DNA from: Bacillus nitratireducens
Lineage (GTDB): Bacteria; Bacillota; Bacilli; Bacillales; Bacillaceae_G
NCBI RefSeq assembly: GCF_001884135.1
Contig: NZ_MAOC01000078.1
Location: 1 to 64,000, forward strand
Reading direction: 5' to 3'
Length of the DNA: 64,000 bases
In this document: positions 4,656 through 34,705 of the stretch, in pieces
How the letters are laid out: every line of letters starts with the position of its first letter
Position numbering within the stretch: position 1 is the first letter of the stretch
Notes under the pieces: model-generated
The model's input: the letters and a program-made list of their open reading frames with translations, nothing else
Databases searched by the model: none
Told to the model about the DNA's origin: nothing
Program-made: the position numbers and the translations under genes

Positions 4656-4732
4656 GCCACACAAAAAGCGGTACATTTTTATCTCTATCCTTTTTTAGAT
4701 ATACTAATTAAAAATATGATGGAGGTTTAAAT

Positions 4733-5473
4733 ATGAAATATGACATTATAGGGGATATTCATGGGTGCTTCCAAGAGTTTCAAAATTTAACGACGAAACT
4801 AGGATACAACTGGAATAGTGGCCTACCGATTCACCCTGACAAACGTCAGCTTGCATTCGTTGGTGATATTACAGATCGCGGTCCTCACTCATTACGTATG
4901 ATTGAAATTGTATGGGAACTTGTCATAAATAAAAAAGAAGCTTATTACGCTCCTGGAAATCACTGCAATAAACTATATCGATTTTTCCTTGGGCGTAATG
5001 TAACAATCGCTCACGGACTCGAAACAACTGTCGCTGAATATGAAGCACTATCTTCTCATAAGCAAAACATTATAAAAGAAAAGTTCATCACCCTTTATGA
5101 GCAATCCCCTTTATATCACATACTAGATGAAAAAAGAGTCATCGTATGTCACGCTGGGATTCGGCAAGATTACATAGGAAGACAAGATAAAAAAGTACAA
5201 ACCTTTGTATTATATGGCGATATTACAGGAGAAAAGCATGCTGACGGCTCACCTGTCCGTCGCGACTGGGCGCAAGAATATAACGGGAAAACTTGGATTA
5301 TATATGGACATACTCCAGTAAAAGAACCTCGATTTGTAAATCACACAGTCAATATCGATACTGGTGCTGTATTTGGTGGAAAGCTAACCGGACTACGTTT
5401 TCCTGAAATGGAGACCGTTTCCGTCCCTTCCTCCCTGCCTTTTGTCGCTGAGAAATTCCGCCCAATTTCATAA
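4733..5473 (+). CDS. prpE: PrpE-type symmetrical bis(5'-nucleosyl)-tetraphosphatase
   Basis: A 246-residue metallophosphoesterase with the PPP-family motifs GDIHG (7-11), GDITDRG (44-50), GNHC (75-78) and a later YGHTPV. The length and sequence match B. subtilis PrpE, which hydrolyses Ap4A to ADP and has protein phosphatase activity in vitro; in B. subtilis it affects spore germination. GGAGG lies 7 nt before the ATG. In B. subtilis prpE sits beside yjbO, and here it also lies next to the yjbO equivalent, with one extra gene inserted between them. Confidence 0.92.
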
Positions 5474-11134: not shown

Positions 11135-12027
11135 TGGATAAGCAGGAAGCAAAGCATATGAATATGCCTTCTCCTTCCACATGCGAGCATAAGTCTGTAG
11201 AAGCATATTTATTTATTGATCCACTTTGTAAAGATTGCTGGGATATCGAGCCATTTATTATTAAACTATGGCTCGAATATGGGAAATACTTCTCTATTCG
11301 TCATATAGTAACTGGAAAAGTGGACGGGACAAACGCTTCCTCACACAAATGGAATAAACCTGCTAATATTCGATTTGTGTGGGAAAAGACAACAAGTTTA
11401 CAAGGTTTTTCATGTGATGGAAAAGTACATATGCAAGAGGCATCGTCAACGCCGTATCTAGTTTCGATGGCAATTAAAGCGGCGGAGTTGCAAGGCCGAA
11501 AAGCAGGTTCGAAGTTTTTGCGAAAACTCCAGGAATACATTCTTCTTAAAAATGTATCAAACCCAGATGGTGAACTATTGCTTACATGTGCAAAAGATAG
11601 CGGCATTGATGTAGAGGAATTTAAAAAAGACCTACACTCAGTTAGCGCAAAAAAAGCTTTCCAATGCGACCTGAAATTCACAAATGAGATGCATATTACA
11701 GAAATACCTTCCCTCCTATTTTTCCATGCAAATTCAGATGAGGAAGGTATTAAAATCGCAGGAATTTATTCCTATGATGTATACGTACAATTATTAAAAG
11801 AACTTGTAAAATGCGAGATTGAGCCAGATCCATTACCTCCTTTAGAGGTATTACTAGAAGCAACACAATTTATTTCTTCAAAGGAAATCTCATTTATATA
11901 TGACTGCCCGCAGCAAGAAATAGAGCGCGAACTAAAAAAATTACAACTAAAACGAAAAGTACAAATGATTGAAGTGAAGTGCGAGCGTTATTGGAAATGG
12001 ATAGCAAAAGAAAAAGACCTGGTGTAA
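11134..12027 (+). CDS. spxH: ClpXP adaptor SpxH (YjbH)
   Basis: A 297-residue DsbA/thioredoxin-like protein with CKDC at residues 32-35. SpxH binds Spx and delivers it to ClpXP for degradation; oxidative or disulphide stress reduces this and lets Spx accumulate. The Spx substrate gene lies about 7 kb away in this window. The start overlaps the haemoglobin stop. A histidine-rich N-terminus as in B. subtilis is reduced here to [21 protein letters not shown] terminator sits across its stop codon. Confidence 0.92.
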
Positions 12028-12040
12028 ACACCAGGTCTTC
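12016..12040 (+). terminator. Terminator overlapping the spxH stop codon
   Basis: GACCTGGTG (12016-12024) pairs with CACCAGGTC (12029-12037), followed by TTCTTCTTT. The TAA stop (12025-12027) is in the loop, so the last codons of spxH form the left arm. Confidence 0.85.
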
Positions 12041-12256
12041 TTCTTTACGGCTTATAAAAATATTAAAGGGGATGGGAGAAATTTTCACGTTCAAACAAAG
12101 GGGTATATGTTTGTATGTGAATTCGTTCACGCTTATTATATTACAAGATTCGACGTCAGATGACAACCCCTTTTGTCGAATTTCACACTTTTGTCACATT
12201 CTAAACGTTTTCATTCTTGAATAAGCTATAAAAAAAGCAATTTAGGAGGTTTCCTT

Positions 12257-32149: not shown

Positions 32150-32406
32150 TAAATAATTTTATATGTATGCGATGATAAAGAAGAGTACATATTGAGGCAA
32201 TTTCAGAGAGCTTGTGGCTGGTGTGAACAAGTAATTGTGCAATATGGAATGGGCTTTTGAGCACCAAACCGAACCGTAAGTAGTAGGCTTTGGCGTTATA
32301 TCCAGACGTTATTATGGATCTGAGAGATTTCACAACAGTGAAATAATTAGGGTGGTACCGCGGTCCATTCGTCCCTATGTAATTTGGGATGAATGGGCTT
32401 TTTTGT
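32150..32406 (+). promoter_or_regulatory. Tryptophan T-box riboswitch
   Basis: The leader contains the nearly invariant T-box AGGGTGGTACCGCG (32350-32363) and ends in a terminator, CCATTCGTCCC pairing with GGGATGAATGG followed by TTTTTT. Upstream is the stem I region; a TGG at 32245-32247 (in AATATGGAAT) is the likely tryptophan specifier codon. Uncharged tRNA-Trp binding would favour the antiterminator and switch on trpS. Confidence 0.93.
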
Positions 32407-32441: not shown

Positions 32442-33443
<1,002 letters not shown>

Positions 33444-33448
33444 CTTAT

Positions 33449-33947
33449 AAAGCGGAGGCGACTGCTTAGCCCTGACGGCTAAGGTTCTTTCCCACAGAAG
33501 GTGCTTTTTACCTTCTCGTGGGGAAGGTTCTTAGACGCGAAGGGCTAGGAGCCGGAGCTGGATTTCTATATAAAGCGGAAGCAGCTCGTTCAGCTCTGAC
33601 TGGCTAAGGTTCTTTCCCACAGAAGGTGCTTTTTACCTTCTCGTGGGGAAGGTTCTTAGACGCGAAGGGCTAGGAGCCGGAGCTGGATTTCTACATAAAG
33701 CGGAGGCAGCTCGTTCAGCTCTGACTGGCTAAGGTTCTTTCGCATAGAAGACGCTTTTTGTCTTCTTATGCGGAAGGTTCTTAGACACGAAGAGCTTGCT
33801 GCCGGAGCTGGATTACTACAAAAAGCGGAAGCGGCTCGCTTAGAATGTGAGGGGGATGGAGTTCCTGACGTAGAGGCGCTTTTTGCCTCGCAGGAAGGCG
33901 CGAAGCCACCGAACATTCTTGCCAACTCCATAAAAAAAACCGCCAAT
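33449..33947 (+). repeat. Four tandem ~125 bp units with covarying hairpins
   Basis: Units begin with AAAGCGG at 33449, 33572, 33697 and 33822 (spacing 123, 125, 125). Each has an inner hairpin with the constant loop GCTTTTT (33503, 33628, 33753, 33878) but different stems: CCCACAGAAGGT in units 1-2, CGCATAGAAGAC in 3, GAGGC type in 4, each with matching complements. Outer arms also co-change: TAGCCCT/AGGGCTA, AGCTCT/AGGGCT, AGCTCT/AGAGCT, AGAATGT/ACATTCT. This is strong evidence of a selected fold. Function unknown. Confidence 0.88.
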
Positions 33948-33962
33948 TGGCGGTTTTTTTAA
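33933..33962. terminator. Bidirectional terminator between the repeat array and yjbA
   Basis: ACCGCCAATTGGCGGT, a perfect palindrome with A-run before and T-run after, overlapping the stop codon of the minus-strand yjbA. Confidence 0.92.
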
Positions 33963-34705
33963 TTTACCTTCTGCTCGTTTTCCATTTCCCATAGCTTTTC
34001 AAAAAACGGCTGTCCTTTTACAAGGCGCTCGCATAATTGTTCGTGCTTCTCAGACCATCCAGTTTTCGCTTCATCATAAAGTTTAGCCCAAATATCTTCA
34101 AATTCCATATGTTGAACCATTCCGTATGCTGATGGATCCCACTCTGTGAACCAATAGCGAATTTCAGCTGGATTTTTCGTTGTATGTAATTGATCTAACG
34201 CCATAAATAATAGTTGTTTTAGCTGTCTTTCTTTACGAGTCAAGCCATTCATAATGAAAGGCGATGGTGATAAAATATGATGTTCTTTTTCAATTTCTTC
34301 TACCTGGAACTCATACTTTTCCGCTTGCACGTTTTCTACCATCTCATATACCATCTGCTCTTGACGAGGTATAAGCCTACTTTTTCTAATTGGCACATTA
34401 TAGCCGATTGAATCAATCGCGATGATTCCTTTTCCATCTGTAACTACAAAACAATATTCTTGTTGCAAACGTTCGTGATTTTTACGAATATAAGCCTTAT
34501 GATGTACGTCTTCCAATAACTTTTGCGGAAGCTCTAACAATTCGTTCTCGATGTAATGATATAATGTGGAATCTACTTTTAATAATGGCACTTGATCTAA
34601 TAGCTCAATCGTATCATCTTTCCGCCATTCGTAAAAATGACAAACGTTATACCCATTCTCTTCACCTTCAAACCAATTTACCCATACATCATGTAGATAT
34701 AACAT
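33959..34705 (-). CDS. yjbA: UPF0736 family protein (YjbA)
   Basis: A 248-residue protein starting [20 protein letters not shown], matching B. subtilis YjbA, a conserved protein of unknown function that lies next to trpS there too. No signal peptide or membrane helix; rich in charged residues. GAGGGGTAGTGA lies upstream of the ATG. The start at 34705 gives the family N-terminus. Confidence 0.85.

Follow-up and report, generated by a model that had tools for sequence, protein, structure and literature searches.

The window (the whole 64,000-nucleotide stretch of DNA that was analysed) carries a trpS gene preceded by a T-box leader and followed, 6 nt behind the stop codon that ends at 33443, by the first unit, u1, of a structured tandem array. 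The counterpart of this gene in genome G024 contains the Pfam domain tRNA-synt_1b, and the C-terminus encoded in the window resembles that of its relatives; the array therefore lies behind a native stop codon. A putative terminator sits between trpS and a convergent gene (33959-34705) beyond it. The features of the locus are:

32163..32379, + strand: T-box leader of trpS (Rfam RF00230, 146.4 bits)
32454..33443, + strand: trpS, tryptophan--tRNA ligase of 329 aa (open reading frame; full-length relatives in 80 loci)
33450..33563, + strand: unit u1, full element (83.6 bits with covariance model R1, among whose 26 sequences u1, u2 and u3 themselves stand)
33573..33688, + strand: unit u2, full element (R1, 85.1 bits; alignment)
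33698..33813, + strand: unit u3, full element (R1, 94.7 bits)
33823..33843, + strand: truncated 5' piece of a unit, trailing the array and opening the fourth unit (u4) of a preliminary description; the entire u4 scores 17.8 bits with R1
33842..33920, + strand: separate hairpin AGAATGT/ACATTCT, the remainder of u4 (fold)
33931..33962, + strand: putative two-way intrinsic terminator composed of A-tract, GC hairpin and T-run (by eye from the sequence; fold)

A tandem array of period 125 and 3.2 copies is detected by TRF at 33447-33838, bearing out the period of 123-125 bp given in the preliminary description; the constant loop GCTTTTT reported there is present in all four units, and the stems that it quotes are all found in the sequence. 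Three of its four tandem units stand as full elements, mutually 82-93% alike and bounded by the repeat period at 33449-33571 (u1), 33572-33696 (u2) and 33697-33821 (u3), while u4 matches them no further than over its initial ~22 nt (33823-33843) and at the loop. We read u4 as a truncated 5' unit piece joined to another hairpin, because arrays of the family described below often end in such a piece. Among the matches listed from 19 related genomes, one alone extends past 33844, to 33888, and a u4 pattern had 0 matches in viral contigs.

The 526-nt array stretch folds with a z-score of -8.06 (0/100 shuffles equally good), u1-u3 forming rods closed by the loop GCTTTTT. The compensatory changes claimed between units are real: u2 and u3 show 15 differences, and 4 of 41 pairs are changed on both sides and still paired, with 0.28 expected randomly and as many reached in 0 of 5000 trials, yet 4 pairs out of the 41 in u3 do not form in u2. 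In the alignment u2 looks like a hybrid, with a u3-like left side and a u1-like right side. The statement that no known RNA family explains the array also holds, as the Rfam scan of the window returned only the T-box and RsaE, the best score within 33400-34000 being 25.9 bits against a gathering score of 50. The RsaE/RoxS small RNA lies at 12010-12130 on the minus strand (Rfam, 94.5 bits).

A dispersed repeat family

When the units were compared by blastn with 80 trpS loci and the window, they matched each other only. Since simple DNA similarity found nothing but the units themselves, a pattern built on the end motifs was needed, and it retrieved 25 copies from 6 of 13 genomes, the reversed control giving 0. 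The alignment of 26 copies from which R1 was built, u1-u3 included, describes a palindromic element of ~115 nt with the ends AAGCGG and GGAGCTRGAC, and head-to-tail arrays of ~125-bp period are common in the family. In the family to which Gottfriedia endophytica belongs, R1 finds 1-118 copies per genome in 18 of 19 genomes, with 150 candidates scored in each. It also has matches in 37 of the 49 Bacillales genomes behind named trpS loci (74 candidates scored per genome), and at E <= 1e-6 in at least 60 of 398 sampled genomes of the class Bacilli, a lower bound given the 9 candidates scored per genome. The named carriers are mostly Bacillaceae, with others including Viridibacillus and Tetzosporium; the 12 of 49 genomes without an R1 match include Listeria, Macrococcus, Ureibacillus and Lysinibacillus boronitolerans, and no member of the 49-genome set is titled as B. 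cereus group. No name for the family was found in Rfam or by full-text literature searches, including searches by sequence words. The family is thus large and, apparently, uncatalogued, and belongs to Bacillus-like bacteria.

The window array had no match among PLSDB plasmids, nor did one C. gottheilii copy among plasmids and INPHARED phages. In viral contigs the window-type pattern matched once and a stricter pattern 0 times, while a loose pattern gave at least 120 stretches, likely by chance in so large a collection. On the viral contig L407 (IMG/VR 2630968894), host unknown, a window-type copy adjoins an open reading frame for a putative transposase, judged by eye.

Copies are dispersed both singly and in arrays. 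With nhmmer, set 1 (defined below) contains 101 arrays, 62 of which hold 2-7 hits at main spacings of 121-127, and set 2 contains 40, of which 19 hold 2-4 hits; none of the 62 and none of the 19 is of mixed orientation. A few of the set-2 hits are split copies, since three spacings fall below 70. A truncated 5' piece ends 53 of the 87 judgeable arrays, out of 141.

Two C. gottheilii genomes, with 126 and 52 copies, allow individual sites to be compared. The comparison covers 29 arrays of the first genome, about a dozen of them flanked in 17 stretches of the second. Six sites are filled in the first genome and lack a full copy in the second. One of these is a clean empty site (L324 versus L400): in the filled genome AAACAAGAAA flanks the insert left and right, and the insert carries 57 further nt. 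The second genome may alternatively have lost this insert between the two copies of AAACAAGAAA. At the second array of L323 the other genome has no clear remnant, and a TAA stop in place of the TGA of the filled genome. The other four 'empty' sites (L318, L319, L321 and the first array of L323) keep a 5' remnant, so that loss by recombination is as possible as gain. Sites filled in both genomes differ by 2 units versus 1 (L320/L393) or 2 units versus 2 plus a fragment (L322/L395, L314/L401), or are equal in number, with 3 units (L317/L387) or 1 (L404/L387). For a target duplication the signal is a statistical one: identity of the 4-nt linkers is 0.56 against 0.42 when shuffled, and exact in 14 of 44, which tandem duplication would also yield.

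At L408:6315-10821 a double unit of 312 bp recurs 14.4 times, its copies being 99% alike, and makes up a 4.5-kb satellite. Every such double unit has in its second half an extra hairpin module found also in L319 and L325, and the gene directly before the satellite is, we presume, acyl-CoA-dehydrogenase-like. Many of the single copies in L366-L377 (genomes G037 and G046) continue on the 3' side into a common extension with CTTTCTTAT at its end, which mirrors the left flank ATAAGAAAAG and may form a terminal inverted repeat (by eye).

Selection on the fold and on one strand

The family fold is rod-shaped, with an AGC/GCT foot, a conserved GGA/GGA internal loop, covarying stems and a long upper hairpin. 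Set 1 comprises 80 stretches of 11 genomes picked for holding copies, together with the window, and yielded 208 matches, of which the best 150 by score (139 distinct) were used for covariation; set 2 comprises 40 stretches of 29 other genomes, likewise picked for holding copies. In the set 1 alignment, which like that of set 2 was fitted to the model so that structure is favoured, 94.0% of cells pair, 33 of 40 pairs have double changes, double-change cells number 1065 against 322 in shuffles (0/500), and slid partners pair in just 30-50%. The corresponding figures for set 2, with the same advantage to structure, are 92.0%, 37 of 40, and 619 against 172 shuffled. The first alignment, built without structure, has double changes in 10 of 16 predicted pairs. 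The fold of the family is under selection. The selection that had been proposed from the window alone is thereby upheld, the covariance model and genome search suggested as a check having found strong covariation in copies far beyond the window units, and far stronger than four units could show.

As to the form in which the fold is selected, RNA or cruciform DNA had been proposed. G-U cells outnumber A-C cells by 408 to 15 in set 1, by 114 to 3 after thinning to 45 copies of <85% identity, and by 140 to 15 after removal of three wobble-rich pairs; in set 2 the counts are 169 and 28, or 105 and 28 without two wobble-rich pairs, a weaker asymmetry in the same direction. When copies are folded singly, the + strand gives the better fold for 176 of 190 full-length copies and, in set 2, for 56 of 65 (three rows >140 nt dropped). 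The + strand is likewise better in 83 of the 85 non-redundant upper hairpins of set 1, with 2.47 G-U pairs against 0.15 on the - strand, and in 76 of the 85 under DNA parameters. With G-U so far in excess of A-C, and a better fold on the + strand in 83 of 85 hairpins, the selected form is one single strand, RNA or ssDNA; this narrows the original proposal, weighing against a symmetric cruciform. We lean towards RNA rather than ssDNA, a judgement drawn from the frequency of G-U pairs. Strand-biased mutation is not supported as an explanation, since the asymmetry is shared by copies whose preceding gene runs the opposite way (-7.0 versus -7.6 kcal/mol).

Gene context and possible origin

The distance from an array to its preceding gene was taken as the array's first base minus the last base of the stop codon, with genes called by a simple ORF rule. 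Where the preceding gene is on the same strand, the array starts within 10 nt of the stop codon in 35 of 56 cases in set 1 and 12 of 16 in set 2; where it is on the opposite strand, the counts are 1 of 43 and, in set 2, 0 of 24 (Fisher 5e-11 and 3e-7). In set 1 two arrays lack a preceding gene, and three places are duplicated regions, which leave the 35 untouched; set 2 was fetched only once the stop-codon rule had been noted. No convergent stop codon comes within 10 nt in either set (0 of 52, 0 of 24), and a gene that follows on the same strand begins that close in 1 of 47 and 1 of 16. Pfam domains are present in nine of the ten upstream genes checked among the 35. An array lies directly behind trpS in 5 of 99 other trpS loci (L020, L136, L137, L138 and L153, one genome counted twice), and many of 54 trpS tails have, by eye, a hairpin and T-run in its place.

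Stop-adjacent copies and the others alike (46 and 84 distinct flanks) have the flank T-A-A-n-A-A-G-A-A, and stop-like triplets at -9, -6 and -5 are present in 15, 14 and 18 of the 84 others; over positions -20 to -11 the mean is 4.9. Since the flank is common to both classes, the stop-codon position may stem from the junction sequence and not from a role in the 3' UTR. Pairing is 93.7% in stop-adjacent copies (n=52) and 94.8% in those with an opposite preceding gene (n=73), the Mann-Whitney test favouring the latter (P 0.049). An RNA specific to trpS is ruled against, the array being one of a dispersed repeat family whose pairing is equally intact away from stop codons. Copies whose preceding gene lies on the opposite strand have no excess of promoters before them (24 sense and 25 antisense of 64). 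Ends of tRNA or rRNA genes, considered as a general rule for the remaining arrays, fit L449 and L422 only. At L449:4063-4178 a copy lies 13 nt behind the 3' end of 16S rRNA on the same strand, and G377 has three further copies of equal score that may sit in other rRNA operons; in L422 a copy lies 8 nt from a tRNA on the opposite strand. L383 has an element on the minus strand at 4695-4812; on its 3' side comes what looks by eye like an intrinsic terminator made out of the element, with a truncated 5' piece, then the complement of that piece, then a T-run.

The element strand coincides with the G-rich strand in 4 of 45 arrays with an opposite gene, 17 of 35 stop-adjacent arrays and 12 of 21 others, and local G-richness was set aside because it is confounded by gene strand. 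On the chromosome G323:C1 orientation follows the replichores: at 63 of 75 sites the element lies on the strand that is not G-rich, with changeovers near 2.2 and 4.3 Mb, whereas G007 has no replichore bias (24/54), origin and terminus having been placed from six or seven GC-skew samples in each genome. Replication direction, strong in G323 and absent in G007, was thus rejected as a general rule of orientation. The motif TTATCCACA, which we take to be a perfect DnaA box, follows GGAGCT at 5-35 nt with 21, 18, 6, 3, 11 and 6 matches in G323, G166, G270, G123, G037 and G038, 1 in G007 and 0 in G001, the reversed pattern giving 0 anywhere; a few matches, among them one in G270 and another in G037, seem to have nothing to do with the element. 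The sequence between GGAGCT and TTATCCACA differs among subfamilies (loci L474-L503).

Two candidate mobilisers were searched for. The Y1 transposase domain PF01797, the only transposase family in the test and one that covers IS200-type and RAYT members alike, is found in 36 of 49 genomes, including six of the twelve that are element-free, and had no match in G033 (71 copies) and G012 (34 copies), drafts that may be incomplete. Reverse transcriptase PF00078 had no match in G001, G033, G034, G043, G049 and G012, which hold 126, 71, 50, 44, 42 and 34 copies respectively. Neither is supported as an obligate present-day partner, the transposase being missing from two element-rich genomes and the reverse transcriptase from six with at least 34 copies; a reverse transcriptase since lost, or one outside PF00078, is compatible with this test.

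We consider it probable that the element belongs to a non-autonomous mobile repeat family of Bacillaceae, that the trpS array is a local, tandemly amplified copy, and that the fold of the single + strand is recognised in trans. Dispersal, filled and empty sites and tandem growth support the mobile reading. The folded + strand would be what the trans-supplied machinery recognises when the element is copied, with A-rich junctions of the type TAAnAAGAA as favoured targets, which would include a stop codon followed by a terminator A-tract; behind trpS the array would be carried in the 3' UTR with a secondary effect at most. The main rival is a host-serving 3'-UTR element like the REP of E. coli, in which the rods slow terminating ribosomes or shield the mRNA from 3' exonucleases. 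The excess of same-strand arrays directly behind stop codons, the lack of convergent stop codons as close, and the arrays behind trpS in the window and in five other loci all agree with such a role, for which there is a precedent, as PMC12306157 (citing its reference 17) states that ribosomes stall at E. coli REP sequences located no more than 15 nt from a stop codon. Stop-adjacent copies, however, pair no better than others, for which reason we favour a mobile element over a trpS regulator, and the stop-like flank is also seen at copies that do not follow a stop codon; we regard the 3'-UTR role as rather unlikely.

An inert palindromic satellite, devoid of dedicated mobility and owing its spread and uniformity to ordinary recombination and replication slippage, would account for the shared site at which the two genomes have 2 units and 1, the 14.4-copy higher-order array of 312 bp, the hybrid u2 in the window and the remnants at 'empty' sites, but selection on paired bases and on one strand is unexpected of inert sequence, as is dispersal to many unrelated sites, making this explanation improbable. 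Still harder to credit is a cruciform DNA element bound by protein, both strands alike, with a nucleoid or replication role: the palindrome itself, the replichore-following orientation in G323 and the presumed DnaA box of some subfamilies would suit it, against which stand the asymmetry of the fold between strands and the lack of replichore bias in G007. A bacterial SINE-like element, that is, an RNA-folded non-coding repeat in the 3' ends of host messages that would be copied via its folded RNA in trans, land at A-rich sites behind stop codons and then amplify in tandem, is a speculation to which we attach little probability.

Covariation together with a one-strand fold, rare in bacterial repeats, tells which nucleic-acid form is selected, and does so here for a family carried by dozens of Bacillales genomes, the highest count being 126 copies in one genome, yet nameless in Rfam and the literature searched. 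The family opens to test both how gene-less short non-coding elements spread and what hairpin arrays behind stop codons do to translation termination outside enterobacteria.

Likeness to known repeat systems

The kinds nearest to the family are REP/BIME, MITEs and the bcr repeats. The REP sequences and BIMEs associated with RAYTs are similarly short dispersed palindromes with clustered copies, partly close behind stop codons; one count in PMC12306157 places 446 of 4,072 E. coli REP within 15 nt behind stop codons. REP are, however, palindromes of 20-40 bp tagged GTAG or CGTC, by the definition in the abstract of PMC3733652, whereas the element described here is ~115 nt long and no GTAG/CGTC end was found in the 26-copy alignment. 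Its arrays are head-to-tail, with 0 of 62 and 0 of 19 mixed, in contrast to the alternating orientation of BIMEs; it is present in genomes with no Y1 transposase match, and its covariation is strong, with G-U pairs on one strand. Membership of REP thus fails on size, end tag and arrangement.

The bcr1-bcr18 repeats of the B. cereus group are also intergenic and 100-400 bp long (PMC6542083), and PMC3446304 reports bcr1-bcr3 as MITE-like and bcr copies in mRNAs of two strains (84/165 and 62/155). The present family spans many genera, unlike bcr1, the first BCR element, which PMC6542083 describes as restricted to the B. cereus group; the comparison with bcr1-bcr18 covers these descriptions, and the family may still prove to overlap with them. 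With MITEs the family shares short, non-coding, dispersed copies, inverted ends and a possible target duplication, but its inverted ends are imperfect (GGA faces GGA), no parent transposon came to notice among the loci inspected, tandem arrays are common and one-strand folding is selected. Single-strand transposition of the IS200/IS605 type, with its miniature derivatives, offers one folded strand and a replication-linked orientation, seen in one of the two genomes counted. Transposition of this type is not known to make a target duplication, which is possible in the family, and the Y1 transposase is absent from two element-rich genomes. The family is filed among short mobile palindromic repeats, from which its covariation and one-strand folding set it apart.
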